Positions 4,147 to 57,678 of a stretch of 64,000 nucleotides of DNA are shown piece by piece. Source of the stretch: Zoogloea sp. (GTDB lineage: Bacteria > Pseudomonadota > Gammaproteobacteria > Burkholderiales > Rhodocyclaceae); contig JADJBR010000010.1 of the NCBI GenBank assembly GCA_016703645.1, positions 558,001 to 622,000 of the forward strand. Direction: 5' to 3'. The notes under the pieces were generated by a model. It searched no databases. It saw nothing but the letters and a program-made list of their open reading frames with translations, and was not told where the DNA came from. The translations under genes and the position numbers were made by a program. Within the stretch, counting starts at the first letter, position 1, and the number at the start of each line of letters is the position of its first letter.

Positions 4147-4156
4147 GGTTCACACC

Positions 4157-5623: not shown

Positions 5624-5627
5624 AGCC

Positions 5628-6213: not shown

Positions 6214-6224
6214 AAGTCCAGGGG

Positions 6225-7863: not shown

Positions 7864-7922
7864 TTCAATAGGGCATAAAGAACGAGTCAGTGTTGAACGA
7901 TGTTACCAGCTAAGCCGGTGGT

Positions 7923-7947
7923 GTCGGGGCGCTGACTTTGCCCCGGC
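7923..7947 (-). terminator. Possible ssb terminator hairpin
   Basis: GTCGGGGC (7923-7930) and GCCCCGGC (7940-7947) form an 8-bp stem with one mismatch around a 9-base loop, 26 bp past the ssb stop. There is no strong U-run, so it may be a weak or factor-assisted terminator. Confidence 0.35.
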
Positions 7948-7972
7948 ATCTCCTTCAATTGACGACAATATC

Positions 7973-8494: not shown

Positions 8495-8525
8495 ATGTCT
8501 CTCCTGAAAAATTCTTGGGGCGGAA

Positions 8526-9722: not shown

Positions 9723-9788
9723 CGAAGCTGCTGCGTGGGGAGGGGCAAGAGGCGTATATTAACAGGTTGCCCCCACCCCGAACGCCCC

Positions 9789-12623
9789 ATGGAAGCCATC
9801 CGAATCCGCGGTGCCCGCACCCATAACCTGAAGAACATCGCGCTCGACATACCGCGCAACAAACTTACCGTGATCACCGGGCTTTCCGGCTCCGGCAAGA
9901 GCTCGCTGGCCTTCGACACGCTCTACGCCGAGGGCCAGCGCCGCTATGTGGAGAGCCTGTCGGCCTACGCGCGGCAGTTCCTGCAGTTGATGGAGAAGCC
10001 CGATGTGGACCTGATCGAGGGTTTGTCGCCGGCCATCTCCATCGAGCAGAAGGCCACCAGCCACAACCCGCGCTCCACGGTGGGCACCATCACCGAGATC
10101 CATGACTACCTGCGCCTGCTCTACGCCCGCGCCGGCACGCCGCACTGCCCCGACCACCCGGAGCACGCCCTGGAAGCCCAGAGCATTTCCCAGATGGTGG
10201 ACGCGGTGCTGGCCCTGCCCGAAGAGACCAAGCTGATGATCGTCGCCCCGGTGGTCAGCGGCCGCAAGGGCGAACAGGCCGATCTGTTTGCCGAGCTGCG
10301 TGCCCAGGGCTTCGTGCGGGTGCGGGTGGATGGCATCGTCCATGAGCTCGACAACCTGCCGGCCCTCGAGAAGGGCCGGCGGCACACCATCGAGGTGGTG
10401 GTGGATCGCCTCAAGGTGCGCCAGGACTTGCGCAGCCGCATCGCCGAATCCTTCGAGACCGCCCTCACCCATGCCGAGGGCCGCGCCATCGCCGTCGAGA
10501 TGGACAGCGGCACCGAACATCTGTTCTCGGCCAAGTTCGCCTGCCCGGTGTGCAGCTTCGCCCTGGCCGAGCTCGAACCTCGCCTGTTCTCCTTCAACAA
10601 TCCGATGGGCGCCTGCCCCAAGTGCGACGGGCTGGGCCACGTGGACTTCTTCGACCCGGTCCGGGTGGTCGCCCACCCCGAACTGTCCCTGGCCTCCGGC
10701 GCCATCCGCGGCTGGGACCGGCGCAACCAGTTCTATTTCCAGCTCCTCGCCAGCCTCGCCAGCCACTACGGCTTCGACATCGAGACCCCCTGGGAGAACC
10801 TGCCGGAAGCCATCCGCGAAGTAGTCCTGCACGGCTCCGGCAAGGACAGGATCGCCTTCCGCTACCTGTCCGACGGTGGCAAGGCGGTGATCAAGGAGCA
10901 TGCCTTCGAAGGCATCATCCCCAACCTGGAGCGGCGCTTCAAGGAAACCGACTCCCTGGCCGTGCGCGAGGAGCTCGCCAAGTACCGGGCCAACCAGCCC
11001 TGCCCGGCCTGCCACGGCACCCGCCTGCGCACCGAGGCGCGCTTCGTGCTGATCGGGGGTCGCAACCTCTCCGAGATCAGCCGCCTGCCCCTGGGTCAGT
11101 GCAAGGCCTTCTTTGACAGCCTCAGCCTCACCGGCCAGCGGGGTCAGGTGGCCGACAAGATCGTCTCCGAGATCTCCAGCCGCCTGCAGTTCCTGATCAA
11201 CGTCGGCCTCGACTACCTGTCCCTCGACCGCTCCGCCGACACCCTGTCGGGCGGCGAAGCCCAGCGCATCCGCCTGGCCAGCCAGATCGGCTCCGGCCTC
11301 ACCGGTGTCATGTATGTGCTCGACGAGCCCTCCATCGGCCTGCACCAGCGGGACAACGACCGTCTCCTGGACACCCTCCGCCGCCTGCGCGACATGGGCA
11401 ACACCGTGATCGTCGTCGAGCACGACGAGGACGCCATCCGTATGGCCGACTACGTGGTTGACATGGGCCCCGGTGCCGGCGAACACGGCGGGCAGGTGAT
11501 TGCCGAAGGCAAACCGGAAGACGTGGCCGCCCACCCCGATTCCCTCACCGGCGCCTATCTGTCGGGCACCCGGAGCATTGCCGTACCCGCCACCCGGCAC
11601 CGCCCCGACCCCGAACGCACGCTGCGCATCAAGGGCGCCACCGGCAACAACCTGCGCGACACCTGCGTCGATATCCCGGTGGGGCTATTCACCTGCGTCA
11701 CCGGCGTTTCCGGATCGGGCAAGAGCACCCTCATCAACGACACCCTCTACGCCCACGTGGCCCGCCACGTGAACGGCAGCAGCATCGAAGCGGCCCCCTG
11801 CATCGGCATTGAGGGGCTGGACCACTTCGACAAGGTCATCAACGTGGACCAGAGCCCCATCGGCCGCACCCCACGTTCCAACCCGGCCACCTACACCGGC
11901 CTGCTCACCCCCATCCGCGACCTCTTCTCCGGCGTACCCGAAGCCAAGGCCCGCGGCTACGGCCCCGGGCGCTTCAGCTTCAACGTCAAGGGCGGGCGCT
12001 GCGAAGCCTGCCAGGGCGACGGCCTGATCAAAGTGGAGATGCACTTCCTGCCCGACATGTACGTGCCCTGCGACGTCTGCCACGGCAAGCGCTACAACCG
12101 GGAAACCCTGGAGATCCGCTACAAGGGCAAGACCATCTACGAAGTGCTGGAGATGACCGTCGAGCAGGCCCTGGCCTTCTTCAACGCCGTACCCATCGTG
12201 GCCCGCAAGCTCGAAACCCTGATGCAGGTGGGCCTTGGCTACATCCGCCTCGGCCAGAGCGCCACCACCCTGTCGGGTGGCGAGGCCCAACGCGTCAAGC
12301 TGGCCCTGGAGCTCTCCAAGCGCGATACCGGGCGCACGCTCTACATCCTGGATGAGCCCACCACCGGCCTGCATTTTGCCGACATCGAACTGCTGCTCTC
12401 GGTGCTCCATCGTCTGCGCGACCACGGCAATACCATTGTCGTCATCGAACACAATCTCGACGTCATCAAGACCGCCGACTGGCTCATCGACATGGGCCCC
12501 GAGGGGGGAGACGGGGGCGGCATGGTGGTCGGTGCCGGCTCGCCGGAGGAGCTGGCCTGCAACCCCGCCAGTCATATGGGTCGCTATCTGACCAAACAAC
12601 TGAAGCCCCGCCCCATCCCCTGA
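9789..12623 (+). CDS. uvrA: UvrABC system protein A (excinuclease ATPase)
   Basis: The 944-residue protein has the standard UvrA length and architecture. It shows Walker [21 protein letters not shown] near residue 31 and a second [13 protein letters not shown] near 640, each with an ABC signature LSGGEAQR. Zinc modules are visible (CPVCSF..CPKCDG and [18 protein letters not shown]). It recognises bulky DNA lesions with UvrB in nucleotide excision repair. The ATG at 9789 fits the conserved start [18 protein letters not shown] possible -10 (TATATTA) lies about 30 bp upstream; I see no convincing LexA box. Confidence 0.98.
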
Positions 12624-13002
12624 GCATCCCGGAGAGCCGCGCCCAGTCTGGAAGGAAGCCTGCGACGCGGCGCCCCCACGCGCGGACTATGGAGTATCAT
12701 GAGTGTCACGTAAACGGACACTTCGGCACGGGGCCTCCTCCAGGAATACCGGCCGCAACACATTCCGGAAGATTACATCAGGCGCCCAGCCCCCGCGCCG
12801 ACGATGGCAAACCGCATCGCAGGCAATACATGGGATCTCGTAGCTCGGGGGCACCTCACCAGGCAAGCTCCATTCCGCCCTTGTCCGGGCGCGTCAGCGC
12901 CGCGCGGCACCGTACCGGTGTGCGCCGGCCCCTGCCCATCAGACACCCTGTACGGCCCCTGCTCCATCCGCCTCCCCCCCAGGCCATCGATCGAGCCCCG
13001 TC
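12624..13002. other. Intergenic region without recognisable gene
   Basis: Nothing coding is convincing here. A weak GCCGCG/CGCGGC stem (12636-12641 and 12666-12671) could help end uvrA transcription. The remainder presumably contains the leader and promoter of the REC-ANTAR gene. Confidence 0.35.
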
Positions 13003-13608
13003 ATGAGCGTCGATACCTCCTCCCCCGGCCGCCCCCGCATTCTGCTGATTGCCGATGACGCCACGTTCACCACAGCCCTGGATCTCGGCCTCCAGTCAGA
13101 GGGCTACGACCTGACCTGCGCCACGGACACAGGTCACGCACTCTCCCTGCGCGGGGAATACCACTTCGACCTCGCCATCCTTGATGAACCGCTCCCGTGC
13201 ATCATGCAGCATGAACTCGCCCGCACACTGCGGGAACAGTTCCAGCTACCCTTCATCGTGCTCAGCAGTTGCGCCGACAGTAGCTGCCTCCAGAACGCCA
13301 TCATCGAGGGCGCCCTCGCCTACCTCATGAAACCGGTGGATGTGTGTCAGCTGATACCGATGATCGCCACCGCCATCGCCCGCGGAACGGAATTGAAAGC
13401 CCTGCGCACCACCCGCGACCAGTTGCAGACTGCCCTCAACCAGGAAAGGGACATCAGCATCGCCACCGGCATGGTGATGGTCCGGCTCGACCTGGATCGG
13501 GCGGGGGCCTTTGAATTCCTGCGCCGGCAGGCCCGATCAAGCCGGCGCAAGCTTGGCGAGGTGGCCCATGAGTTGATCGGCAATCGCGGCGCCACCCTAA
13601 AGACATAG
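13003..13608 (+). CDS. Response regulator with ANTAR RNA-binding domain
   Basis: The 201-residue protein has a receiver domain at residues 11-128 (LLIADDATF acidic pocket, phospho-Asp in LAILDEP, Lys in YLMKPVD). A coiled-coil linker and a C-terminal ANTAR domain (about 148-195, RDISIATGMVMVRLDLDRAG) follow. ANTAR regulators (AmiR, NasT, EutV) bind paired hairpins in nascent RNA and prevent termination. No nitrate, amide or ethanolamine operon is nearby, so its targets are elsewhere. The following gene is a c-di-GMP protein 145 bp downstream, which may share input. Confidence 0.88.
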   Translation: MSVDTSSPGRPRILLIADDATFTTALDLGLQSEGYDLTCATDTGHALSLRGEYHFDLAILDEPLPCIMQHELARTLREQFQLPFIVLSSCADSSCLQNAIIEGALAYLMKPVDVCQLIPMIATAIARGTELKALRTTRDQLQTALNQERDISIATGMVMVRLDLDRAGAFEFLRRQARSSRRKLGEVAHELIGNRGATLKT

Positions 13609-13753
13609 GCATTTCCGCCGTAAACCGGCACATTCCATGGTCGCCCCTCACGGCGACGGCACCACGGGCCCGGACCCCGCCCCAGACTGACTGTTGCCAA
13701 GGTCCTCGCAGCCCATACACTGCCAGGACGGCGGCCACTCCAAGCGGGGCAGC

Positions 13754-15514
13754 ATGATCGCCAGTTCCAACGGCCGGCCGAAAACCGGGCTTTCCCAAGG
13801 CAAGACCGCCAGCCCGGTCGCCACCCCCTATCTCAACCGCGACGCCACCCCCGTCGCCCAGATCCTTGCCCGCGCCATTGAGCAGACCGATGACGCAGTC
13901 ATGATCACCCGCTCCGATGGCGTCATCGAGTACGTCAACCCGGGCTTTGAGCGCATCACCGGCTACCGCGCCGGCGACATCATCGGCCGCCGCCCCTCCA
14001 TCCTCGCCTCGGGCATGCATCCGCCCGCCTTCTATAGCGAACTGTGGCGCACCCTTGGCCGCGGTGAATCCTTCCGCAGCGTGTTCACCAACCGGCGCAG
14101 CAGTGGCGAGCTTTATTACGAAGAGAAGACCATCAGCCCGATACGGGGTGCCGACGAAGCCATCAGCCATTTCGTGGCCACCGGCAAGGACGTCACCGAA
14201 CGCATTGCCGCCGAACGCCGCCTCGAATACCTCGCCAACTACGACGCCCTCACCGGCCTGCCCAATCGCAGCCTGCTCCATGACCGCCTCGCCCAGGCCA
14301 TCCAGCGCGCCCATCGCCTGGGCAAGGGCGTTGCCGTGCAGTTCGTGGACCTGGACCGCTTCAAGCTCATCAACGACACCCTCGGCCACAATGCCGGCGA
14401 CCGGGTGCTGATCGAAGCCGCCAGCCGACTGCGCCAATGCCTGCGTGCCACCGATACCGTCGCCCGCCTCGGCGGCGACGAATTCATCCTGATTCAGGAA
14501 GGCGTGGGCAATCCCGATGAAGTCGAGCAAGTCGCACGCAAGGTTCTCGATGCCTTCGCACCCTGCTTTCCCGTGGCGCCCCCCCAAGGCCTCTTCGTCA
14601 GCGTCAGCGTCGGCCTCGCCCTCTACCCGGGAGACGGCCTCACCCCTGACGAACTGCTGATGCGGGCAGATCTGGCCATGTACCGGGCCAAGGAAGGCGG
14701 ACGCAACAGCTTCCGCTTCTTCGAAGCGGCCATGGACGCCAGCGCCATGCGCACCCTGACCCTCGAAGCGGCCATCCGTGGCGCCCTCGACAACCGGGAA
14801 TTCGCCGTCGTCTATCAGCCCATCATCGACACGCGCACCCAGCGCCCGATTGCCGTCGAGGCCCTGATGCGCTGGCACTCACCCGTCCATGGCACCGTTC
14901 CGCCGGATCACTTCATCCCTCTGCTCGAAGAAAACGGCATGATCGTGCCCGTATCCCGCTGGGCCCTGCGCCAGGCCCTGCGCCAGGTTCGCACCCTGCA
15001 ATGCGCCGGACAGCCCGCGCTGCGCCTTGCCTTCAACCTCTCCAGCCGCCAGTTCCGCGACGTGGAATTGCTCCAGGACGTCACCGCGGCCCTCGACGAA
15101 GCGGGTTTCGACCCCACGCTGCTGGAGCTTGAACTCACCGAAAGCGCCCTCATGGACAACCCGGACGCCTCTGCCGCCGTGCTGGAAGCCCTGCGCGCAC
15201 GGGGTATCCGGGTCGCGGTGGACGACTTCGGCACCGGCTACTCATCCCTCGCCTACCTGATGCGCTTCCCCGTGCGCACCCTCAAGATCGACCGCAGCTT
15301 CGTCTATCAGATGGAGCGCAGCAAGGAAGCTGCCACCATCGTCCGCGCCATTGCCTCCCTGGCGCGCAGCCTGGGGCTCGAACTGATCGGCGAAGGGGTG
15401 GAAAATGTGGGGCAGCTTGCGCTGCTGCAGGAAGTCGGCTGCCACCAGGTCCAGGGTTTCCTGTTCAGCCGGCCGGTCACGGGTGCCGAACTGGCTCTTA
15501 GCTTCCCGCACTGA
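13754..15514 (+). CDS. PAS-GGDEF-EAL c-di-GMP turnover protein
   Basis: The 586-residue protein carries a PAS domain (residues about 35-160: DDAVMITRSDGVIEYVNPGF), a GGDEF cyclase domain (165-325, intact RLGGDEFILI) and an EAL phosphodiesterase domain (340-580). EAL motifs look intact: AVEALMRW, NLSSRQF, LELTES, DDFGTGYSSL, KIDRS, GEGVE and QGFLFSRP. It could make or degrade c-di-GMP depending on the PAS signal. There are no membrane helices, so it is cytosolic. I prefer the ATG at 13754; a TTG 60 bp upstream is possible. A dispersed repeat follows the stop. Confidence 0.92.
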   Translation: MIASSNGRPKTGLSQGKTASPVATPYLNRDATPVAQILARAIEQTDDAVMITRSDGVIEYVNPGFERITGYRAGDIIGRRPSILASGMHPPAFYSELWRTLGRGESFRSVFTNRRSSGELYYEEKTISPIRGADEAISHFVATGKDVTERIAAERRLEYLANYDALTGLPNRSLLHDRLAQAIQRAHRLGKGVAVQFVDLDRFKLINDTLGHNAGDRVLIEAASRLRQCLRATDTVARLGGDEFILIQEGVGNPDEVEQVARKVLDAFAPCFPVAPPQGLFVSVSVGLALYPGDGLTPDELLMRADLAMYRAKEGGRNSFRFFEAAMDASAMRTLTLEAAIRGALDNREFAVVYQPIIDTRTQRPIAVEALMRWHSPVHGTVPPDHFIPLLEENGMIVPVSRWALRQALRQVRTLQCAGQPALRLAFNLSSRQFRDVELLQDVTAALDEAGFDPTLLELELTESALMDNPDASAAVLEALRARGIRVAVDDFGTGYSSLAYLMRFPVRTLKIDRSFVYQMERSKEAATIVRAIASLARSLGLELIGEGVENVGQLALLQEVGCHQVQGFLFSRPVTGAELALSFPH

Positions 15515-15518
15515 AAGC

Positions 15519-15645
15519 ACGTAAAGCCATCGCAACACGCGGTTCGGGTTGCCTCCCGGAAGCACCGCCTTACACGGGGTACGGCGGGCGTCCGCAAGGG
15601 CGCAATCGCACCCCACGGCAGACTGACTCGCACGCCTGCACGCCC
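15519..15645 (+). repeat. Dispersed short repeat, copy B
   Basis: This copy lies between the GGDEF-EAL and DUF1186 genes. It aligns along its length with copy C (16629-16743): CGGTTCGGGTTGCC, then GAAGCACCGCC, then GGGGTACGGCGGGCG, then GCAAGGGCGCAATCGCA. It is the most diverged of the three copies and lacks clear terminal inverted repeats. Confidence 0.5.
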
Positions 15646-15716
15646 CGGCCACCACAACCCGCAGCGGTGCACGGCGTTCCAGTACACTGATCTCCACCCC
15701 CACTTCGCCCACGCCC

Positions 15717-16625
<909 letters not shown>

Positions 16626-46678: not shown

Positions 46679-47947
46679 TTAGTCCTCTGCAAGCAACGGT
46701 TTAGCTGCCAGGATGATCAACAACAGTTCGGAGTCGTCAACCAGGCGGTACACCGGGCGAAGACCAGATAGCCGCTCACTCTGATCCAGGATGATCTGAA
46801 CACCCTCACCACGCTTGTCCATCATCGCGCTGCGGCCCGAGAAGGCTTTGTCAGCCTCGGGCACCTGGCACTTGGCCAGCAGGCTGGTGACGGCCTCGTT
46901 CCGCGCAGCTTGCCGGTATGGAAGGCTATCCACGGTCATCGTGTTGGGGATGGCGCCAGGAGAATACAGCTCCAACCGATCAGCGAACATTCGCAGGCGG
47001 ATCTTGGCGCCGTGAATGGAATAGTCTCGATGGGCAACGGCATTTACCAGTGCTTCGAAGACAGCAGTCATGTCGTACTGGGGCAGGTCATGCCGACCCT
47101 CATCTTTCGATGCGGAGATCCGCATGTTTTTGCGGACAAAGTGACAGGCTGCCAGCACCTGGGCATCAAGAGGCCCTGTGATGTCTTGGGCATCGAGCTG
47201 GTAGGCGGCGTCGCCTTGAGGCAAGACCTCGGTCCCCCGATAGGCCACAGCCTGGATGAAAGCATTCGGCAGCCAACGGCGAGGGTCCGCACTGGCCATC
47301 AACACACCTGAAATGGTCGGACGAAGTGTCCCGTCGGCATCGGGGCGAGCCATGGCGAGCTTGTCCAGAAGCACCTCACGGGTGTCCTGCACGCGGGGGC
47401 TCGCGAAGCGCTGCCAGAGGACATCTGAAAGGTCGTCGAGCGAAGCGCCGGGCACGGCCTGCTCGTCGAATCGAATGATGCGCACTTGGCTGCGCTGTTG
47501 AAAAAGACGCGCCAAATAGTCGGGCGCCATCTCGCGCTTGGCGCTTCCCACACGATGGTAATAGCCGCCCGGGCTTCGATGCACGAAGATGCTGCCCGAG
47601 ACATCAAGCTTCAACACCGGTAGCGGTTCGCCCGCGGTGCCGGGCAGGGTCAGGCGCTCAATCATCGGCGTCAGCGGCGGGGTGATGCTGTCCAGGCAAA
47701 TCTGCCGGACGAAATCCTCCACCAAGTCCAGACGCTCCAGCGGAATACCGAGCACTTCACGGGTGTCGTCCACGCCCAGCACACACACACCGCCACGGCT
47801 ATTGGCGAAGGCGGCCAGCTCGTCGGCCAGGGCGTCTCTGTGGGGTGCGGATACCTTTTGGCCGGCAAAACGGACTTCCTTCAACTCCAGATAGGAGTCC
47901 TCCCCCAGGCGAATCTTGTCGATCAAGTCGGCAATGTTGTCGAACAT
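46679..47947 (-). CDS. AlbA_2/Schlafen-type ATP-binding protein (divergent AAA_4)
   Basis: The 422-residue protein has an N-terminal AlbA_2 domain (residues about 5-125: EDSYLELKEVRFAG, DELAAFANSRGGVCVLGVDD) and a C-terminal HATPase_c_4-type region (VFEALVNAVAHRDYSIHGAK, DRLELYSPGAIP). Related proteins occur as regulators and in predicted phage-defence loci; Schlafen-type AlbA domains can act on RNA. The ATG at 47947 begins 1 bp after the stop of the upstream gene with GAGAGG as RBS, so the two are translationally coupled. Its base composition is clearly less GC-rich than its flanks. Confidence 0.82.
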   Translation of the reverse strand: MFDNIADLIDKIRLGEDSYLELKEVRFAGQKVSAPHRDALADELAAFANSRGGVCVLGVDDTREVLGIPLERLDLVEDFVRQICLDSITPPLTPMIERLTLPGTAGEPLPVLKLDVSGSIFVHRSPGGYYHRVGSAKREMAPDYLARLFQQRSQVRIIRFDEQAVPGASLDDLSDVLWQRFASPRVQDTREVLLDKLAMARPDADGTLRPTISGVLMASADPRRWLPNAFIQAVAYRGTEVLPQGDAAYQLDAQDITGPLDAQVLAACHFVRKNMRISASKDEGRHDLPQYDMTAVFEALVNAVAHRDYSIHGAKIRLRMFADRLELYSPGAIPNTMTVDSLPYRQAARNEAVTSLLAKCQVPEADKAFSGRSAMMDKRGEGVQIILDQSERLSGLRPVYRLVDDSELLLIILAAKPLLAED

Positions 47948-47948
47948 G

Positions 47949-50795
47949 TCAAACCTCTCTTCCCAGGCGTTGGTAGCGCCGTTCAAACGCTTCTTCTCCG
48001 CCTTCCATCACCTGGCAGACTTCGCTCCGCATGGCCTTGTCCTGCAAGGAGCCGGTCTGCTTCACATGGCACTGGTGGTTGAAATCCAGCACGTGAATCA
48101 GCTCCGCATCGCCATTCACCACGATGTTGGGGTTGTGGGTCACGATGATGAGCTGACGGCGCAACTTGTTACTGCGAATCTGCTGGACCACCAGCCCATA
48201 GATCAGGTGGTTGTCCAGATCGTCTTCGGGCTGGTCGAGCACCAGCGGCTCGTTCCCGTGGGCCAGCAGAAAGGCCAGCATGGCGGCCGCGCGCTGCCCG
48301 GCAGAAGCCTGACCGATGGACTGAAAATCCTGGCCATCACCTTTACGGCTGTATTCCACCTGCAAGCCGTCTTCCGGGAACCAGCACAGGATGTGATCGA
48401 TGAACTCCGGGCGTTTGTCGGCTTCCGCTTTCAAGAATTTATTGAACCAGCCGCCAAACTCCGCCTGCCCACGACAGGCATGCAACAGGCGCATTTTCTG
48501 CGTCCCCAGCGCCTGCTCGAAGGCGGCTGTATCCGAGGTGCTCGGTTGTTCGCCAAGATTAAACGTTTCCAGCAAGTCGGCCACAAGGCCCCTGGGAAGC
48601 ACCCCCTCTTGCTCCTGATACAGGTCATCCACGTACTTGCCGTCCGCTGCCCCAAGCAGCTCCCGCAATGAGCGCTCGATGCCCTGCGCATCCCGGCTGT
48701 AAGGGATCAGTTCAATCCGCACAAAGGGATTGCCTTGCAGTGTTGTACGCAGAAAAGTGCCGCGCTGTACGCCAATGGCACGGCGGGCAGACTGCACCTG
48801 CTCCAGCAACGCGTTGGCTTTCTCGCGCAGATCCGCATGCTGCTTTTGCAAGGTCTCCAGCCGCTTCAGCTCGGCTTCCAGCCGCTGATTTTCCTGAACC
48901 AGACGGCCGTACTCGCTGGGGTCGCTAACGCCCTGTTGCTGCAAATCGGCCTTGAGCTGATCGTAAGCCGCTTTGGCCGCATCGATCCGCACAAACCAGG
49001 GCGATGCTTCCATCTCTCCCCGCAGGACTTGCCTGCGCGCCAATAGCCCGGCAGCCGTGCTCTCGACTTCCTGCCGCGCTTTGTCGATGGCAGCGTGCAG
49101 CGCCTGGACGAGACTCAGCGCCGGACCGTCCTCGTCGGGATCAAACAGACCTGCCGGCAAGTCCTCCGCCAACAGATCGGCCGCAAGCCCCGTCAAGCGG
49201 GCTGCCAGCTCGGCGGAAGCTTCAAACTGGCGTTCCAGCTCGCGGCTTTGCCGGCTGGTGCGTTGATAGTTCTTCAGCACCGCCGCATGGTCGGCACCCT
49301 CGAAGCGGGCCAGCTTGCGCCGAATATCTTGCAGGGCAAGCGTCAGCGACTCGCGTCCTTGCAGCTTGCCTTCCAACTCGCGCATCTGCGCCCGAGCGGC
49401 CAGAAAGGCGCGTTTGGCCTCTTCAAAGGCAGCCTGCTGCGATTGCGTGCCCGCCGCATTGTCGATCACCTTCAGCAAGGCCTGCTGGCTGTCGCCGGCC
49501 AGCGCCGCGATCTGCCCCTGGCTGAACAGGCGCAGCGGGAATCGTTGTTCAGTGACGGCCTGGCTGGCCGAGGGCTTGAAGCTGCCCGTGGCGGCGTCCC
49601 ATTCCTCCACCACGTGGCCTTGGCCATCCTGTCGCCAGACCAGACGATAGGACGTACCATCGCGATGGACTTGGACCTGGATGGCAGTATCCGCCCGCAG
49701 CCCGCCTTCGTCACTGCGGGTCTTGGCGACCTTGTTGAAGCGGTTGAAGGTCTGTCCGGCTTCCGAGTTGGGCGACAGCTCCTTCTCGCGCCGATAGGCC
49801 AGGCGCAGGGCATGCACGATGGTCGATTTGCCGGTGCCACGCCCACCGATCAGGGCGTTGAAGTAGGGGTTGAGCAGCAAGCTGGCGGGCAGCCTGCCAC
49901 GCCCCATGTAGCGCGCGTCGCGGATTTCAATCGACTCGATGAAATGCTCGGGCGCGTTGAACGGCGCAAAGCCGCTGCTTTCATCGCTGCGTCGAACGGA
50001 GACCTCTTGCCCATCCAGCAACGCAAGTCGCAAGCCTTCCGCGCTGGGCTTAGCCATCTTGATCCAGGTGTAGCGCGAACCCGGCACAGCCGACCCCTGG
50101 AAGCTGTGACAATCGCTGCCCACCACGCTGGCAAAGTGCAGCTTCCGTTCATCCAGCACCATGGGTACGGGGCTGGAGGCAGCAGCCCACTCCAGCGCCA
50201 GGATGCCGGGCTCCTGCAAAACCTGCTTGACCGTCGTGGTATCCATAAGGCATTTTCGCGTACCAGGCTCGACCTGCAGCAGGCCCTTGTCGCCATCGAC
50301 GTGTGCCGGAATGGCAAGGCCACCCGCCGCCAGAATGCGCTCGACCACCTGGGCGGCACCGATTCGGGTGACGCCATCGCTGTCGCCGCGCGTGCCATCG
50401 TAGTCCACCCGCGCCAGCAGGTCGCTGATGGCCTGACTGGTGGCGGACGGGTCGAAGATCGCCAGCAGGTGAAAGCCACCCTGTACCGAAATCTCCACAC
50501 CGGGGAAGAGGTGCAGTTCACGGAAACCGGCGGGCGGCGCGCCCGCGTCGGCCTCGCGCTTCATCTCCGCATAGGCCGCCTTGAGCGTGTCGATCCACTC
50601 GCCTGTGTTGTGGTCGGTGACGGCCACGCAGTCGATCCCGGCGGCCATGTACTTGAGCAGCCAGGTATGTGGCGTCAGCGCATTCGGCGTACCAATGGCC
50701 GCCTGCCAGGCTCCCGTGTCCCTGGAGGCCGGGGTGTGGGTATGGAAATCGAACTTCCACCAGCGTGCGCCGGGGTAAGGCCAGGGTTGGCTCAT
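47949..50795 (-). CDS. PHP phosphoesterase fused to SMC-like ABC ATPase (TrlF-type)
   Basis: The 948-residue protein has an N-terminal PHP metal-dependent phosphoesterase/nuclease domain (FDFHTHTPASRD, TDHNTGEW, IPAHVDGD, VGSDCHSFQ), with metal ligands present. An SMC/RecF-like ATPase follows: Walker A IGGRGTGKSTIVHAL near residue 318, a long coiled coil (about 460-700), signature QASAGQRAA, Walker B PLVLDQPEDDLDN and H-loop IIVTHNP. ATPase plus nuclease-like domain suggests DNA- or RNA-end surveillance. RBS AGGAGAAGG precedes ATG. It lies upstream of and coupled to the AlbA_2 gene. Confidence 0.88.
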   Translation of the reverse strand: MSQPWPYPGARWWKFDFHTHTPASRDTGAWQAAIGTPNALTPHTWLLKYMAAGIDCVAVTDHNTGEWIDTLKAAYAEMKREADAGAPPAGFRELHLFPGVEISVQGGFHLLAIFDPSATSQAISDLLARVDYDGTRGDSDGVTRIGAAQVVERILAAGGLAIPAHVDGDKGLLQVEPGTRKCLMDTTTVKQVLQEPGILALEWAAASSPVPMVLDERKLHFASVVGSDCHSFQGSAVPGSRYTWIKMAKPSAEGLRLALLDGQEVSVRRSDESSGFAPFNAPEHFIESIEIRDARYMGRGRLPASLLLNPYFNALIGGRGTGKSTIVHALRLAYRREKELSPNSEAGQTFNRFNKVAKTRSDEGGLRADTAIQVQVHRDGTSYRLVWRQDGQGHVVEEWDAATGSFKPSASQAVTEQRFPLRLFSQGQIAALAGDSQQALLKVIDNAAGTQSQQAAFEEAKRAFLAARAQMRELEGKLQGRESLTLALQDIRRKLARFEGADHAAVLKNYQRTSRQSRELERQFEASAELAARLTGLAADLLAEDLPAGLFDPDEDGPALSLVQALHAAIDKARQEVESTAAGLLARRQVLRGEMEASPWFVRIDAAKAAYDQLKADLQQQGVSDPSEYGRLVQENQRLEAELKRLETLQKQHADLREKANALLEQVQSARRAIGVQRGTFLRTTLQGNPFVRIELIPYSRDAQGIERSLRELLGAADGKYVDDLYQEQEGVLPRGLVADLLETFNLGEQPSTSDTAAFEQALGTQKMRLLHACRGQAEFGGWFNKFLKAEADKRPEFIDHILCWFPEDGLQVEYSRKGDGQDFQSIGQASAGQRAAAMLAFLLAHGNEPLVLDQPEDDLDNHLIYGLVVQQIRSNKLRRQLIIVTHNPNIVVNGDAELIHVLDFNHQCHVKQTGSLQDKAMRSEVCQVMEGGEEAFERRYQRLGREV

Positions 50796-50952: not shown

Positions 50953-51144
50953 TCAAGAGCCTATCTCTTGTCTCTCGATGGCATCATTTTCCAGTTTCAG
51001 CCCATGCTCCTGCGCATACTTCAGGATCAGCACTTCCATCATCGACGCGACTGAACGGTGCTCCCTCTCTGCTGCCATGCGCAGCAACTGCTTGATATCT
51101 GCCGAGGTCCGGATGGACAAAGTTTCGTCCTTGGGGCGCTTCAT
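50953..51144 (-). CDS. Small ribbon-helix-helix-like protein
   Basis: The 63-residue protein has the form strand-helix-helix: ETLSIRTSADIKQLLRMAAE then REHRSVASMMEVLILKYAQE. This fits CopG/Arc-type DNA-binding or antitoxin-like proteins. The ATG has AAGGAG at ideal spacing. As first gene upstream of the PHP-ATPase and AlbA_2 genes it is a plausible autoregulator of that cassette. No partner toxin of usual type is adjacent. Confidence 0.65.
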   Translation of the reverse strand: MKRPKDETLSIRTSADIKQLLRMAAEREHRSVASMMEVLILKYAQEHGLKLENDAIERQEIGS

Positions 51145-51339: not shown

Positions 51340-51449
51340 CCCGGGTGCGCGCTCGACAGCAGGCCTCGCTACGCATCGCGTCGGGCTCAAGCCCTTTGCG
51401 GGGGCGCTGCCCCCGCTCCCCCGCCCGGCGCCGCATCGGCACCGGCGTT

Positions 51450-52652
51450 CTATTTGCTGGGCCTTTGTTCAGGAGGTAAAGGGGTAAAGGATGAAGAAGT
51501 AAGGGTCCGGGCAAGCCGAAAACCAGTGTCGAAGTCGCGGTCGTCCGGGGAGTTCCTGTCGCGGAAGGCCGAGCGGGCAATGTCTGGAAGGTCGTCCCAG
51601 CCGCCGCCGCGCAGCACCCGGCGATCATCACTACAGTTCGCCTCCCAGGGCTTGCTCCCGTCCTCCGGCGCACCCTGGTAGCTGTCGTGCCAGCAGTCCT
51701 GCACCCATTCCCTCGCATTGCCGTGCAGGTCGTAAAGACCGAAGGCATTCGGCTGGTAGGTCTTCACCGACGCAGTGTGAACGTGGCCGTCGTCGCAGTC
51801 GGCAATCTCGTACTTCCAGTCCGGAATGGCTTTCTTGAAGCTCCGGTCGCCCACGTTGGCATGGCGGCACAGTTCATCCCCTTTGTCGCCAAAGGAATAC
51901 CGGCTCGTGCTCCCCACCCTCGCCGCGTATTCCCATTCCGCTTCCGTCAGCAGGCGATATGTCTGGCCCGTGCGCTTGCTCAACCACGCCGCAAACGCAC
52001 GGGCATCACTCCAGTCCACGCACACCACAGGGTGATCCGGCTCTTGAGCAAAACCAGGGTAGCGCCAGCTACCTTTAGCGTCCCACTTCGAGTCCTTGCC
52101 TGACCACACAACGCCTGACCACACAAAACAACCTTCACCCGTCTTGTAACCGGTCTCATCAACAAACCGCGCAAAGGCTTCCCGGGTCACTTCCGCCTCC
52201 ATCACCGCAAACGGCTCGCTGATCCTCACACGGTGCTGCGGACTTTCATCCGACTGGTGGCCTTCCTCGCCCTCCGCCGAACCCATCATGAACTCCCTCG
52301 CCGGCACCACCACCAGCCACGGGCACCCCTCATCGCGGCAATCGCGCAGGCGGGTGCCGGGTGGGTAGGCGTTCTCCTTCATCTCCGCGCTCGGGGCCGT
52401 GGATGCCACGAACGGCATCCATTGCGGCGCCAGGGTGGGCAGTACGACGCCCGCCAACAGCACCAGGGCCAGCCCCAGCCAGAAGGCCGCCCGCAGGCTC
52501 CGGCGGACGGCCGCCGAGGCGCGCCCGGGCGGTGGCCGCAGGATGGGACGCAGGACGTCCTTCAGCGGCGGCAGGCCGGGGCCGGGCTGCGCCATTGGCG
52601 GGACGGGCGCTTGAGGGGGCGAATTATCGGGGCGGAAAGGGGCTTGGCTCAT
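51450..52652 (-). CDS. Membrane-anchored FGE/SUMF1-fold protein
   Basis: The 400-residue protein has a Pro-rich cytoplasmic start, one membrane helix (residues about 54-76, FWLGLALVLLAGVVLP) and a formylglycine-generating-enzyme-like domain (110-385: FMMGSAEGEEGHQSDESPQH, YRLLTEAEWEYAARVG, NAFGLYDLHGNAREWVQDCW, RRVLRGGGWDD, TGFRLART). True FGE enzymes have two active-site cysteines before the final arginine-rich strand; here that segment reads DLPDIARSAFRDRN with none. It is therefore probably a ligand-binding or scaffold domain. It overlaps the TIR/vWA gene by 4 bp and ends the operon. Confidence 0.85.
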   Translation of the reverse strand: MSQAPFRPDNSPPQAPVPPMAQPGPGLPPLKDVLRPILRPPPGRASAAVRRSLRAAFWLGLALVLLAGVVLPTLAPQWMPFVASTAPSAEMKENAYPPGTRLRDCRDEGCPWLVVVPAREFMMGSAEGEEGHQSDESPQHRVRISEPFAVMEAEVTREAFARFVDETGYKTGEGCFVWSGVVWSGKDSKWDAKGSWRYPGFAQEPDHPVVCVDWSDARAFAAWLSKRTGQTYRLLTEAEWEYAARVGSTSRYSFGDKGDELCRHANVGDRSFKKAIPDWKYEIADCDDGHVHTASVKTYQPNAFGLYDLHGNAREWVQDCWHDSYQGAPEDGSKPWEANCSDDRRVLRGGGWDDLPDIARSAFRDRNSPDDRDFDTGFRLARTLTSSSFTPLPPEQRPSK

Positions 52653-55204
52653 TGGTACACCTCTCCCCTGGGGGCAAGCCGAGGCGCCAGAGCGTCCAGC
52701 AGGGCGTGCACCCGATGGTCCTGCGCCCCGCTCCAGTCCTCCACATCAAGCGTGTGCAGCCTGTCGAAGGGGGCCGGTATGGCAACCGCTTCGATGCGCA
52801 CGGGTATCAGCACCTCCCTGTTCCAGCCCCTCATGGCGGCATCCAGCACGAATTGACTCGTCACCGAATGGGACGACCACAGCACCACCACCAAGCGGGC
52901 TGCCTCCAGGGCCTGGGCGTTGTCCTCGATCCAGTTCCGGCCCCCCATCAACTGCACATCGGTGAACAGCCGCCAGCCCCGCGCCCGGCAGTGGCGGGCC
53001 AGGCGCTCGGCGATGGGGGCATCGGGCTGGGCGTAGAGCAGGTAGATGTCGGGGCCGGGCGCGTCGTCAGGGGGTGGCACGCTTTCCGTCGGCACGGCGG
53101 CGGGCGGCCCGGGCCGCTGGAGCCGGGCCGCAACGCGGCGCGCCGGGTGGGCCACCACCATGGCCCCCGCCCACAGCCAGCGCAAGGGGTTGAGGGTGAG
53201 CGGGGCGAGGTCGCTGTCGTCCAGGGTATCGCCCACCTCCAGGGTCAGCTCCCGGTCGTAGTCGCCCCGCAGCACGCCCAGGTAGATCACGTCGCGCAGG
53301 GGGCTGTCGGCGGGTTCGCCTTCCACCACCCCGGCAAGGCCGATGCGGTCGCGCAGGCGCCGCAACCAGTTGGAGCGGTCGTCCCGGGCGACGTTGCCGA
53401 GGGCGATACCGCCCGGCAGGGCCTCATTGCCGGCGGTCTTGAAGAGGCCCTGGACGATGGACTTGATGAAAATGCGGGAACCCACCGGCTGGCTGAGCAG
53501 CAGGGCCCGGCGCAACCAGTCGGGCATCCAGCCCTGGCGGCACCAGGGGAGCTGGGCAATGGCCATCAGGCGGGCTTCGAAGAGGCGCGGGTCGGGGCGC
53601 TCCGGTTGAAGGCCCGGTTGCTCGGCCAGACGGTGGGCCAGGTAGGCGGTGAGATCGGCGGAGAGCTGGGGGTAGGCGGCGGAGGCCACCAGCCAGGTGT
53701 AGGCCGTGGGGCCCAGGTAGTCGCGCAGGGCGTCCACCAGTGCCATCACTTCAGCGGCCGGCGGCGCCTCGCGGCTCAGCCAGCGGCCCGGCGCCTGCAC
53801 CAGCAGCGCGGGCAGGATGGCCGGCGCGCCGGGGAGCGGCGCCACCTCGGGCACGGCGGGGGCGGTGAGCCACCGGGCGGCCGCCGCCAGGGCGTCGATG
53901 CGGGCGGGCACCAGCAGGAAGGACGGGGCGTCGGCGGGCAGGTCGGCACCGGCCAGCACATCTTCGGTGGGGCCCCAGCTGGCCATGGGCAGGGGGGTCA
54001 TCAGCACCCGCCGGGGCCATGGGGCAAAGGCCGCCTGCACCCACGCGGCCAGGCCGCCACGGTGCAGGTCGATCAGGGCATGGCCATCGCCGATGAGCAC
54101 AAGCCCCTGGCCCCGGTGGCGGCTGACCAGATCCCGCAGGGGCCGGGAACGCCGGGTGGCTGGCGTGACGGCGCTGCGCTGAAGGCGCAGGGGGGCCACC
54201 CAGCGGGGGTCGCGGTCGTATTCGTAGAGGCTCAGGGACACGCCCTCGGCGTGGAGATCCCGCGCCAGCTCGGCGGCCCAGTGGGCCTGCTGGTCGCCGT
54301 GGCTGGCCCGGTCCACCAGCACCAGGTATTCGGGCATGGCCTGGCGGGGGCGCCAGACGGGGGAGAACAGCCCGGCGCGGGCGGCGGTGGCCGCCGTGCT
54401 GGCCAGGAGATCGAGGGTGCGCCCTTCGGCGGGCCGCAGGCGGCGCAGCAGGCGGGTGGACTGGCGCAGGGCGTGGCGCCGCTCGCCCGCCACCGGCAGG
54501 AGCTGGCGGGCAAACACGTGCTGCTCGCGCAGCTTCTCCCGGGTGCTGATGCGCGCGAGTTGCTGGCGGCGGGTTCGCCGCACGGCCAGCCCCACGGAGC
54601 CCATGAGCAGCACGGCCAGACCGTAGACGAGGGGGTGGATGCCGAAGAGCCGGGGCGGCCCGGGGAGCAGCACTTCCCGGTCGCCGACAAAGCGGACCTC
54701 GCCCAGCGGCTGGGATGCGACGGGCGCCGTTGCGGGAGCAGGTGCGGGTGCGGGCTGAATCTCTGTCGGCTTGACTGGCACCTCAGGCTTGCTGGCATCA
54801 AATACTCCAGCCAGCCACGCACCCCCAACCCCAAGGGCGATCAACGCGATCAAGCCCAACAGCCAAACCCTCCAGCGCCAGACCTGACGTTTTCGGGCCT
54901 TGCCCGCCCCGCCCTTTCCCCCCAATTTCTGGCCTGGGGCAGACGCCCCGGGCACCGCCACGTCCCCGGATAACCACGCCTTAAACACCTCATCAAACAG
55001 CGCCTGCTCCCGGGCCGACTTGCACACAATCGCCCGCACCGGGATGCGCGCCGAGCCCGCCCCGCCCCCCAACAGCCCCCGGGCCTCCGCCGCGGCGAGC
55101 CAGGCCTCCAGGTTCAGGCGGATGCGCGCATCGATGGCCATGCCCCGGGCCTGCAAGGCCGGCAGCAGGGTGTCGCGAAGGTCGTCCAGCCAGTCGGGGG
55201 TCAC
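52649..55204 (-). CDS. Membrane protein with vWA-like region and C-terminal TIR domain
   Basis: The 851-residue protein has an N-terminal helical domain (1-90, IVCKSAREQALFDEVFKAWL), two membrane helices (about 112-132 and 189-206) and a vWA-like Rossmann region (about 285-420: YLVLVDRASHGDQQ, LVLIGDGHALIDLH) whose MIDAS DxSxS is degenerate. A helical middle follows, then a TIR domain (about 705-850: DIYLLYAQPDAPIAERLARH, DVQLMGGRNW, VLWSSHSVTSQFVLDAAM). The usual catalytic Glu after the SxxW motif is not evident. GTG start at 55204, 9 bp after the MoxR gene. Likely the MoxR client and membrane platform. Confidence 0.78.
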   Translation of the reverse strand: MTPDWLDDLRDTLLPALQARGMAIDARIRLNLEAWLAAAEARGLLGGGAGSARIPVRAIVCKSAREQALFDEVFKAWLSGDVAVPGASAPGQKLGGKGGAGKARKRQVWRWRVWLLGLIALIALGVGGAWLAGVFDASKPEVPVKPTEIQPAPAPAPATAPVASQPLGEVRFVGDREVLLPGPPRLFGIHPLVYGLAVLLMGSVGLAVRRTRRQQLARISTREKLREQHVFARQLLPVAGERRHALRQSTRLLRRLRPAEGRTLDLLASTAATAARAGLFSPVWRPRQAMPEYLVLVDRASHGDQQAHWAAELARDLHAEGVSLSLYEYDRDPRWVAPLRLQRSAVTPATRRSRPLRDLVSRHRGQGLVLIGDGHALIDLHRGGLAAWVQAAFAPWPRRVLMTPLPMASWGPTEDVLAGADLPADAPSFLLVPARIDALAAAARWLTAPAVPEVAPLPGAPAILPALLVQAPGRWLSREAPPAAEVMALVDALRDYLGPTAYTWLVASAAYPQLSADLTAYLAHRLAEQPGLQPERPDPRLFEARLMAIAQLPWCRQGWMPDWLRRALLLSQPVGSRIFIKSIVQGLFKTAGNEALPGGIALGNVARDDRSNWLRRLRDRIGLAGVVEGEPADSPLRDVIYLGVLRGDYDRELTLEVGDTLDDSDLAPLTLNPLRWLWAGAMVVAHPARRVAARLQRPGPPAAVPTESVPPPDDAPGPDIYLLYAQPDAPIAERLARHCRARGWRLFTDVQLMGGRNWIEDNAQALEAARLVVVLWSSHSVTSQFVLDAAMRGWNREVLIPVRIEAVAIPAPFDRLHTLDVEDWSGAQDHRVHALLDALAPRLAPRGEVYQ

Positions 55205-55213
55205 GGGGAAGCG

Positions 55214-56206
55214 TCAGGCGAGGCGCGGGTGACGGCGGGCGGCCTCCTGATCTTCGGGGGCTTTGACCAGGGTGGACAGGTGGCGCTGCGCCAGCCCGAC
55301 CGGCAGGGCTTGATCGAAGGCCGCGCCATCGCTGGCCAGGGCCGCCACGAAGCCCAGGAATTCGGACGTGGAGGGCCGCTTGCGCAGGTCGTAGGCGGAG
55401 GAACGCAGGTCGGCAAACAGCGCCAGGGCCTCGTCGAGCAGGCGCCCGGGGCGCACCTGCAAGCCGGCCAGGCGGCGCACCACGATGCGGCGCAGGCGCT
55501 CGGCCTCGATGGGTTGCAGGTGAAAGAACACGCAGCGGCGCAGGAAGGCGTCGGGCAACTGCTTTTCGGAGTTGCTGGTGATGACGATGATGGGGCGCAG
55601 GGCCTCGGCCGCGCTCACCACCCGGCCACCGCCCACCTCGCGGATGCGAAAGTAATGGCGCTCCACTTCGTTGAGGGCGTCGTTGGGAAAGTCGCTGGGC
55701 GCCTTGTCGATCTCATCGATGAGCACAATGGCCCGGCGCGGGCCGCCGTACCAGTCGGGCAGCCGGCCCGCCGGAAAGAGCGTGGCTGCCTCGGCCGTGG
55801 GCAGACTCTCCACGATGGCCCGGCCAAGGGCGCCGAATTCGATGAAGTTCAGGGGGTCGAGGGCCGCCTTGTTGGTGTCGGACTGGGCGGTCTGGAAGCG
55901 CGCCACGTGGTCGAAGTGGTAGAACAGATCCTGGGCCACGCTGGTGGAGCGGGTTTCGAACTTGCACAGGGGCAGGCCCAGCTCCAGGGCCATCTTCTCG
56001 GCGAGCTGGGTCTTGCCGGTGCCGGGCTCGCCGCTCACGAGCAGGGGCTGGGCCAAGAGCAGGGCGGAGTTCACCGCGTCGGCCAGGCCGGGCTCGGCGT
56101 CGTAGGCGTCGGGGCCGAAGAAGCGCGCCCGGTCGATGGAGTCGATCTTCGCCGGCCGGGTGGCCGGGGGAATGTCGGGCGTGCCTTTGAACCAGTCGGA
56201 TGCCAC
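55214..56206 (-). CDS. MoxR-family AAA+ ATPase
   Basis: The 330-residue protein has Walker A VSGEPGTGKTQLAEKMALEL near residue 57, Walker B AIVLIDEIDKAPSDFPND near 159, sensor-1 PIIVITSNSEKQLPDAFLRR and arginine-finger RRCVFFHL, as in MoxR ATPases. MoxR proteins remodel partner complexes, normally with vWA proteins encoded next door; here the partner would be the vWA/TIR membrane protein 9 bp downstream. The GTG start has GAGAGGA 6-7 bases upstream. The gene is 23 bp after the TIR gene in the same operon. Confidence 0.92.
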   Translation of the reverse strand: MASDWFKGTPDIPPATRPAKIDSIDRARFFGPDAYDAEPGLADAVNSALLLAQPLLVSGEPGTGKTQLAEKMALELGLPLCKFETRSTSVAQDLFYHFDHVARFQTAQSDTNKAALDPLNFIEFGALGRAIVESLPTAEAATLFPAGRLPDWYGGPRRAIVLIDEIDKAPSDFPNDALNEVERHYFRIREVGGGRVVSAAEALRPIIVITSNSEKQLPDAFLRRCVFFHLQPIEAERLRRIVVRRLAGLQVRPGRLLDEALALFADLRSSAYDLRKRPSTSEFLGFVAALASDGAAFDQALPVGLAQRHLSTLVKAPEDQEAARRHPRLA

Positions 56207-56229
56207 GGTAAGTCCTCTCGATGAATGGG

Positions 56230-57678
56230 TCAGCGCGGCGCAAACCAGCCGCTATCGGGTTTCTTGACGGTCTCGGCGAAGTCCTTCATGGGCCAGCTGT
56301 CCTTTTCCTGGGGCAGGCTGCGGCCGATCAGGCTGTCCACGTCGTCCACGAGACGCGGGGTGATGTCGTGATCGATGACCCACTTGCGGACGTGGGAGTC
56401 GTTCAGTTCGGGCAGTGACTCCAGGTGGGCGCCGGCGAGCCCCCCGCCAGCGATGGCCGCGGCCAGCACCGGCAGGATGGCCTCCCGCAGGCGGGAGGGC
56501 GCGCCGGCCTCCGCGTCGGGGGCGCGCACCAGGTGGAGCGCCAGCACCAGCATGTTGTTGCGCCCCAGGGCGGGAAAGGCGGCCAGCGCGGCCAGCATGC
56601 CCTTGACCGCCAGGGCCACCTTGTCGGGCGCCTCCTTGTCCTGGCATTCGGCAACCAGGAAGATGGCGCGGGCGCCCCCCGCATGGCAGGCCGCGACTTC
56701 GGCCTCAGTGGCTGCCGGGCGGGGCCCCAGGGCACCGGCCAGCGCCCGCACGGCACGGCGGCGGGCCTCGTCCTCGCCGGCCAGCAGGGCCAACGCGCCG
56801 GGCCAGTTGAGGGCCTTGATGTGGCCAAAGGAGAGTTCTTCTTCCGGCAGACCCAGGGCGGCGCGGACCTCCCGGCGCTGAAGACGTTCGGCCCATTGGT
56901 ACAGGCAATCCTTGGTGCGCCCCTCGGTGACGAGGACCAGGGGGCAGACGAAGCCGATCCTGGCCCAGGCATCCAGCGGATCGACCAGAGCGTCGGTCTG
57001 CTCGCCCCGGTCGCACAGGTAGGGCAGCCAGTCGACGCTGAGATCCGTCCGCGCGACGGGGGCCGGCGCGACGGGCGGCGGCACGGCGTCCCCCGCCGGC
57101 ACCACCGGCACCACCGGCACCGCGTTGGGGCTGGTCAGCGCGTTCTCGATCTGCTGCTTGACCAGCTCCCAGGCATCCGCCTGCCGGTCATTGGGCCAAT
57201 CGGAGAGGGGACGAAGCCCGGAACGGGTCTCCACCGCCGTTTTGAATTCATCCTGGGGCAGACATTGCACGCCGCTCACCGCAACACGTTCCCCTTCGAT
57301 GTCCACGAAGAAATCGTCCAGATCGACCGAATGCAGGGCCACCCCGATCACCCGGATGTGGGGCGCCTGCCGCCGGCGTTCGAACATGCGGCGCAGCTCG
57401 GTCTCGCGGCAGAAGGACGACGCGTTGTAGGCATGGCTGAGAAGAACGATGAACACGTCGGTCTCCTCCAGCGCAGTGCGGATCTGCGCTTCCCACAGGT
57501 TGCCGGCCTTCAGCGCCTCGTAGTCGAAAAAGATCTCCATGTCGCCCAGCCGCTCGCACATGGGCGTCAGCGCCCGGTGCAGGCGCAGGGCATGCGGGTA
57601 GTCGGCATGACAATACGAGATAAAGATCCGCCGACCGACGGACGTCTTCTGAACTGCTTTCGGCATCCCCTCCCCCAT
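56230..57678 (-). CDS. TIR domain protein (putative NADase effector)
   Basis: The 482-residue protein has an N-terminal TIR domain (15-150: RRIFISYCHADYPHALRLHR, EIFFDYEALKAGNLWEAQIR, VFIVLLSHAYNASSFCRETE). The Glu in the FCRETE segment sits where TIR NADases keep their catalytic residue. A Pro/Val linker (about 195-225) leads to a C-terminal STAND-like or inactive-NTPase-like domain (235-480, no Walker A seen), which may be the sensor. The ATG at 57678 is used; an ATG at 57666 is possible. First gene of the four-gene operon. Confidence 0.85.
   Translation of the reverse strand: MGEGMPKAVQKTSVGRRIFISYCHADYPHALRLHRALTPMCERLGDMEIFFDYEALKAGNLWEAQIRTALEETDVFIVLLSHAYNASSFCRETELRRMFERRRQAPHIRVIGVALHSVDLDDFFVDIEGERVAVSGVQCLPQDEFKTAVETRSGLRPLSDWPNDRQADAWELVKQQIENALTSPNAVPVVPVVPAGDAVPPPVAPAPVARTDLSVDWLPYLCDRGEQTDALVDPLDAWARIGFVCPLVLVTEGRTKDCLYQWAERLQRREVRAALGLPEEELSFGHIKALNWPGALALLAGEDEARRRAVRALAGALGPRPAATEAEVAACHAGGARAIFLVAECQDKEAPDKVALAVKGMLAALAAFPALGRNNMLVLALHLVRAPDAEAGAPSRLREAILPVLAAAIAGGGLAGAHLESLPELNDSHVRKWVIDHDITPRLVDDVDSLIGRSLPQEKDSWPMKDFAETVKKPDSGWFAPR

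Follow-up and report, generated by a model that had tools for sequence, protein, structure and literature searches.

Four adjacent minus-strand genes of Zoogloea sp. (GCA_016703645.1, contig JADJBR010000010.1; genome label G000) fit, by their domain content, the MoxR-vWA-iSTAND class of ternary conflict systems described by Kaur et al. 2020 (PMC7159879). They occupy positions 51450-57678 of the window, i.e., the whole 64-kb stretch of DNA that was analysed. Judging from its pattern of substitutions, the 3' end of the fourth gene is the variable region of a diversity-generating retroelement (DGR), with the template located in trans ~78 kb away. A DGR-diversified sensor, relayed by the MoxR/vWA pair, probably releases NAD+ cleavage by a TIR domain. 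The features of the locus are as follows:

56230..57678, minus strand: gene 1, 482 aa, TIR (aa 18-117) and a very probable iSTAND domain (~aa 215-475)
55214..56206, minus strand: gene 2, 330 aa, MoxR-type AAA+ ATPase
52649..55204, minus strand: gene 3, 851 aa, CoxE-like N-domain, two transmembrane helices (TM), vWA, linker, and TIR
52712..53047, minus strand: TIR of gene 3, predicted to be catalytically dead (Ala789)
51450..52652, minus strand: gene 4, 400 aa, TM anchor and FGS/FGE domain of the C-type-lectin fold
51508..51623, minus strand: variable region of a DGR, at the 3' end of gene 4, closing with the constant tail GGTTTTCGGCTTGCCCG
51398..51416, minus strand: inverted repeat GCGGGGGC-AGC-GCCCCCGC, a possible DGR target element, not canonical

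Domain architecture of the four gene products

The four open reading frames, separated by 23 and 9 bp and then overlapping by 4 bp, lie exactly where a preliminary description of this DNA had placed them. The domains that it named hold as well: Pfam confirms the TIR of gene 1, the MoxR-type ATPase of gene 2, the C-terminal TIR of gene 3, and the FGE domain of gene 4; hydropathy agrees with two TMs for gene 3 and a single one for gene 4; and the vWA-like region of gene 3, in a middle part without a Pfam match, has a profile-profile match to CoxE-type vWA proteins. Its parts list overlooked the iSTAND domain of gene 1, the loss of Glu from the gene 3 TIR, and the DGR. The proposal of an undescribed system, for which no named system with exactly these parts was known, was rejected, as the ternary class had already been described (Kaur et al. 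2020, PMC7159879).

The N-terminus of gene 1 matches Pfam TIR_2 with 52 bits (cut-off 28) and retains the catalytic Glu94, which is invariant across five aligned TIRs from these systems. The C-terminal two thirds gave no Pfam match. By profile-profile comparison, the C-terminal half is very probably an iSTAND domain: on its own it matched iSTAND proteins at 94.9% (hhalign), and a profile of gene 1 with the TIR proteins of two sister loci (L029 and L030) matched a four-protein iSTAND profile at 98.2% over 239 columns, and profiles of five and six iSTAND proteins at 98.7% and 97.4%, respectively. The controls, one reversed and 20 column-shuffled versions, reached 0.0-0.2%, and the gene 1 C-terminal profile scored 2.2, 13.9, and 0.7% with the vWA, N-domain, and CoxE profiles. 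The stretch LPYLCDRGEQ of gene 1 corresponds to LPYLCDRSEQ in a Nostoc iSTAND protein. Some observations speak against the assignment. The Pfam iSTAND model (PF19995) fails to reach gene 1; across the order it had matches in seven of 399 genomes, with only the L036 locus of the same Zoogloea genome above the cut-off, and the iSTAND reference proteins L031 and L073 are themselves below it. Hydropathy also flags two Ala-rich stretches (354-372 and 401-419), which are read as buried helices.

Gene 2 is matched by Pfam AAA/AAA_5, with Walker A (GEPGTGKT) and Walker B (IVLIDE) both intact, and shares 46.5% identity with the MoxR protein of the Nostoc edaphicum iSTAND locus. In a tree made to see whether it groups with the MoxRs of iSTAND systems, it falls inside no starred set, and the 14-row group with a support of 94/94 is an open one.

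Gene 3 comprises an N-domain (~aa 10-90), TM1 (113-131), TM2 (186-204), vWA (~255-450), a helical linker with LPWxRxGxMPDWLR (aa 552-565), and TIR. The core of the gene 3 family matched the CoxE-type vWA proteins of similar loci at 96.8% over 179 columns and the stand-alone vWA protein of L036 at 95.2%; the N-domain is CoxE-like, with a moderate match of 81.9% over 64 columns (hhalign in each case). The acidic residues that end vWA core strands 1 and 4 are D or E in all ten aligned rows (gene 3 and nine relatives), and the DxSxS motif is not preserved in gene 3. Pfam identifies the C-terminus as TIR_2 (63 bits, aa 720-831). The catalytic position is Glu in 19/19 TIRs homologous to it (18 from the family search and one from the same genome), and it is replaced by Ala789 in gene 3 and likewise by Ala in the 86% identical ortholog on contig L001, so this TIR is predicted to be catalytically dead. 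Since gene 1 keeps Glu94 and gene 3 has Ala789, NADase activity is predicted for gene 1 only. Kaur et al. 2020 (PMC7159879) note that systems of this kind typically take up their modules in an inactive form. From hydropathy and charge, the N-domain, vWA, and TIR are predicted to be cytoplasmic, and the ~55 aa that separate the two TMs would form a periplasmic loop.

Gene 4 matches Pfam FGE-sulfatase with 207 bits, and its FGS/FGE domain spans aa 111-382. One TM (aa 56-74) has its positive side N-terminal by hydropathy and charge, and the FGS domain is predicted to be periplasmic. The vWA-FGE fusions of loci L029 and L140 have three TMs, and therefore their FGE domains would also lie outside; this rule is not uniform, because the fusions of L137 and L138 have one and four TMs. 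Sequence matches in PDB included PvdO (5hha, E 6e-56) and a variable protein of T. denticola (2y3c, E 2e-11). The last Cys of gene 4 is residue 340, with none from RGGGW (348) to the end. In this region the aligned solved FGEs carry cysteines, which we take to be the catalytic ones, and FGE catalysis by gene 4 is unlikely for this reason.

Variable region of gene 4 and its remote template

Between RVLRGGGW and GFRLARTL, gene 4, its ortholog on L001 (a contig of a Zoogloea sp. metagenome-assembled genome), and the end of the L029 FGE gene differ mainly in NNC codons. A pattern search of 23 genomes of the genus found four sites, three of them in the genome studied here and one in the congener G205. 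The template repeat (G000:C10:531128-531243) directly follows the stop codon of a reverse transcriptase (RT) gene (RVT_1, 62 bits), and the RT gene itself comes after the L029 FGE gene and an accessory gene (bAvd, 56 bits); the template is ~78 kb from the variable region of gene 4. Over 116 bases, gene 4 is changed at 13 of the 27 template adenines and at one of the 89 other bases (Fisher p 4.5e-9). The corresponding counts were 14/27 and 2/89 for the L029 FGE gene and 11/27 and 5/89 for L001. Because the search pattern fixed 22 bases of a 30-nt stretch, the changes outside that stretch were recounted, giving 10/20 adenines and 1/66 others in gene 4 (p 5e-7). The amino acid varies at 16 of 33 codons across the template and the three variable regions.

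An inverted repeat with an 8-bp stem and a 3-nt loop lies 91 nt past the variable region of gene 4. Three exact copies were found in the 23 genomes, located 91-99 nt past the constant tails of the window, L029, and L001. In phage DGRs, the hairpin has a 7-10 bp GC stem and a 4-nt GRNA loop and is placed 4-34 bp after the variable region (PMC3240598). A canonical DGR hairpin was rejected here, since the loop size and distance of the repeat are off.

Several points weigh against an active remote DGR. Departure from the phage hairpin rule, as worded in PMC3240598, is one, and the folding of the three copies is unremarkable (z -0.8, -1.8, and -0.4; 43, 9, and 58 of 200 shuffles fold as well or better). 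The congener G205 has a variable region, yet no RT match at E <= 1e-20 was found in it. The variable-region evidence comprises one sequence from one genome, and DGR activity is putative. Gene 4 and the cis variable region of L029 share the same base at six of the seven adenines changed in both, so a duplicated FGE gene may have passed on some of these changes. Taken further, gene 4 could be a relic sensor, its variable region copied together with the FGE gene from the sister locus and its diversification over, which would leave an iSTAND system of fixed specificity. Besides the shared bases and the missing RT match in G205, the close match of the two FGE genes over ~130 nt upstream of the variable region is in favour of such a relic. 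We nevertheless regard it as unlikely: the two variable regions differ at 14/27 template adenines and only 3/89 other sites, the constant tail and inverted repeat are preserved, and the RT gene, accessory gene, and template are open and adjacent.

Recurrence, sister loci, and neighbouring genes

Co-occurrence beyond close relatives, which the preliminary description had named as a check, was observed for the core of third component, MoxR, and vWA, while the exact four-gene layout was found only in this genome. The core is found again in the same genome, in other genomes of its family and order, and on plasmids from a Bacteroidota species, Azospirillum, and cyanobacteria, and the gene set is therefore more than a chance neighbourhood. 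One of 22 other congeneric genomes searched (G205) contains pieces fitting the operon: gene 1 as far as aa 256, at 92%, where the 4,936-base contig stops, and, on a different contig, the end of gene 3 with gene 4; gene 2 was not searched there. Contig L001 carries the end of gene 3 (88% identical) and gene 4. Among 199 genomes of the family, gene 1 as a query matched 27, nearly all through the TIR alone, and gene 3 matched 15 (four candidates scored per genome), of which G000, G085, G110, G177, and G186 matched via the vWA region and the rest by TIR only. A 10-row gene 3 profile matched 59 of 399 genomes of the order at E <= 1e-10 (three candidates per genome); the match ran along most of the model in six (G000, G177, G230, G231, G433, and G462) and over a vWA-sized stretch in the remainder. 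Carriage by phages was considered and rejected: no relative of gene 3 was detected at E <= 1e-5 in 50,697 phage records, and pattern scans of viral contigs with gene 2 and with alignment A3 gave no confirmed case.

Two sister loci are present in the same genome. L029 (C10, 535-540 kb) encodes a TIR protein, MoxR, and a 1,629-aa vWA-FGE protein, with propeller-like matches below the cut-off. L036 (C9, 1,137-1,144 kb) encodes a DUF4062-iSTAND protein, MoxR, a stand-alone vWA protein matching the CoxE-type set at 99.9% (hhalign), and a 1,054-aa TIR-CHAT protein:

G000:C9:1135001-1153000, positions 2254-8895, minus strand: L036, ternary system, vWA with an intact-looking DTSPS

In L036, DUF4062 (52 bits) stands in place of the gene 1 TIR; a 2026 report describes members of this family as antiphage NADases that resemble TIR (PMC13174449). 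The N-terminal slot of the third component looks like an NAD-cleaving one in these loci, because it holds TIR in gene 1, L029, and L030 and DUF4062 in L036. In plasmid relatives, the slot can hold a trypsin-like or CHAT domain instead. The plasmid relatives of the gene 3 vWA from Cylindrospermopsis (L070), Nostoc edaphicum (L071), and Azospirillum (L072) have a PF19995 gene directly upstream of MoxR in 3/3 cases (65, 85, and 33 bits, respectively; cut-off 24). In Acaryochloris (L076), iSTAND, MoxR, and VWA_CoxE genes are followed by two separate FGE genes, so the window is not alone in having a detached FGS gene.

Loci L137 and L140, each from another family of the same order, encode a TIR protein, MoxR, a vWA-FGE protein, Avd, and RT, with a separate FGE gene in L140. 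Their variable regions are changed at 16/31 adenines and 0/79 others in L137 and at 10/31 and 14/31 adenines, with 0/79 others each, in L140. The template search for these loci admitted at most four non-adenine changes, and a plain-identity search returned the same places and counts. Under the adenine filter, no template was found for L138 (two FGE genes) or L141; the best plain-identity matches were 74/110 with 24/82 non-A changed and 80/110 with 16/26 A and 14/84 non-A changed, respectively. The L137 TIR protein matched that of L029 with E 2e-36. Tested alone against iSTAND, the third components of L137 and L140 were not confirmed (1.8% and 9.3%). Under the cut-offs were also DUF4062 in L031 (19.4 vs 24.7 bits) and iSTAND in L031 and L138 (16.3 and 20.1 vs 24 bits).

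Locus L141 (G000:C7:638001-656000, positions 8845-15736, minus strand) has a second DGR-type RT, 60% identical, with an adjoining AAA_35-LRR-FGE gene and a TIR/AAA_35 gene, for which a hydrolase-like match stayed below the cut-off; it is apparently a STAND-FGS conflict system. Further DGR-like RTs at G000:C7:1521k, 1885k, and 1332k share 37-48% identity with the C10 RT, and the first of them seems to be split in two. In L032 (12070-14368, minus strand) and L033 (7216-14843, plus strand), a stand-alone TIR gene (181-194 aa) is followed by MoxR and a vWA gene with a long WD40 array; in L033, an extra 188-aa gene without a Pfam match lies between these. Because of these WD40 arrays, the beta-propeller ternary class was considered for the operon and rejected: bpMoxR scores gene 2 with 11.8 bits (cut-off 27), and gene 3 has no propeller match.

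Downstream of the operon, the window contains a TrlF family ATPase gene (47949-50795, minus strand; NCBIfam 643 bits with a cut-off of 350, PADLOC Ppl 459 bits, and NCBIfam Ppl 518 bits, under its cut-off of 1000), followed by a Schlafen/AlbA_2 gene (46679-47986, minus strand). This order is preserved in L001. A 63-aa reading frame (50953-51144, minus strand) between gene 4 and the TrlF gene looks ribbon-helix-helix-like by eye.

Proposed mechanism and comparison with known systems

A conflict-type operon in which MoxR/vWA could gate the TIR at the membrane, with the FGE fold as a possible sensor, had been suggested from the outset, and this is supported by the present data. In the mechanism that we favour as probable, the periplasmic FGS domain of gene 4 would bind a foreign item, such as a phage particle or a non-kin cell, and the binding would be passed to gene 3, either through the membrane or via its periplasmic loop. 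The vWA of gene 3 would hold the TIR-iSTAND protein, and ATP hydrolysis by the MoxR ring would remodel the complex of gene 3 with gene 1. The gene 1 TIRs could then assemble, the dead TIR of gene 3 serving as their scaffold or cap, and their NAD+ cleavage would kill or arrest the cell in time to prevent spread. It counts against this scheme that the path from sensor to switch is one that we infer. The order of events follows the one that Dore et al. 2024 (PMC10907252) propose for DGR targets and not the view of Kaur et al. 2020 (PMC7159879), who assign the sensor role to the third component; a sensor outside and a third-component sensor are both possible. More tentatively, one DGR might serve two sister ternary switches, the 1,629-aa vWA-FGE protein in cis and the separate periplasmic sensor in trans over 78 kb, with the dead TIR keeping the live TIR-iSTAND NADase in check.

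It is not yet settled what DGRs do for ordinary bacteria, and the proposal that they diversify antigen sensors "remains to be experimentally tested" (PMC10907252). If one DGR does serve both switches, the locus would couple an anticipatory, membrane-facing receptor repertoire to NAD+ depletion. It offers a compact test in a genus that is probably non-pathogenic, because NAD+ loss is predicted as a measurable output of the four-gene switch. The sensor has a gene of its own, which can be deleted while the switch stays as it is, and the DGR, which looks intact, has both a cis and a trans target.

Zoogloea is a floc-former, and the operon might instead be a device for kin or self recognition, in which a diversified periplasmic lectin reads neighbours and brings about death or exclusion of non-kin. 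The predicted periplasmic position of the gene 4 FGS domain and the annotation of a congener as Zoogloea are consistent with this. It is nevertheless rather improbable, since known TIR NADases act mostly against phage and a TrlF-family gene, kin of the antiphage Ppl, lies ~650 bp downstream and in the same place in L001. For DGR-linked conflict systems, Dore et al. 2024 (PMC10907252) raise the kin/self alternative as well. A MoxR-vWA chaperone with a housekeeping role (of the CoxD/CoxE or RavA/ViaA type), which would mature an envelope protein and have in gene 4 an enzyme of the formylglycine or PvdO kind, would agree with the CoxE-type vWA similarity and with PvdO as the best PDB match, but is very improbable given the TIR and iSTAND domains, the DGR signature, the patchy spread (pieces in 1/22 other congeners), and the absence of Cys from gene 4 where aligned FGEs have them; no conserved substrate gene was noticed beside the operon, and no search was aimed at one.

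Among known systems, Thoeris was rejected, as the similarity is confined to TIR: PADLOC ThsB gave 40 bits over the TIR alone, NCBIfam ThcB4 scored 22 against a cut-off of 220, and genes 1-4 had no ThsA match. Pfam matches at E <= 1 included no VMAP family in genes 1-4. Our literature search found no work joining Zoogloea and DGR. The BREX gene set differs from that of the operon. A likeness to BREX/MoxR-vWA iSTAND modules lies in the inactive STAND, which has been proposed to sense or regulate in MoxR-vWA systems (PMC12839542). The Swarozyc/DUF4062 TIR-like NADases are alike in that this NAD-cleaving family takes the gene 1 TIR slot in L036, and differ in that the available text describes the DUF4062 protein with its auxiliary domain and does not mention MoxR (PMC13174449).

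In the text available, DGRs are tied to VMAP systems rather than to iSTAND ones, and also to ternary FGS systems generally and to STAND-FGS systems; their templates, it is stated, can sit in another part of the genome. A DGR-linked iSTAND system is not claimed here as unreported, supplementary tables being outside the search. The systems of Dore et al. 2024 (PMC10907252), with targets in Thiohalocapsa PB-PSB1 and RTs of DGR clade 5, are similar in that their C-type-lectin (FGS) targets adjoin genes for MoxR, TIR, and peptidases and are in part diversified in trans. In clade 5A, MoxR precedes a target, and a short CLec-only target often occurs with a long one whose N-terminal extension has no predicted domains. 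In contrast, the N-terminal part of the vWA-FGE relatives can here be recognised as a CoxE-type vWA, and the third component probably as iSTAND, a word absent from Dore et al. 2024 (PMC10907252).

The closest fit is to the class of Kaur et al. 2020 (PMC7159879), in which TIR is among the iSTAND N-terminal domains, some vWA proteins have N-terminal TMs, FGS is the commonest effector (~22%), and TIR is also listed as an effector. The operon shares with it the MoxR protein, a vWA protein that starts with a CoxE-like N-domain and TM and has an effector at its C-terminus, and a third protein combining TIR with a probable iSTAND. It differs from that class in its separate, membrane-anchored FGS protein, in TIR on both components with the vWA-borne one predicted to be dead, and in the putative remote DGR.

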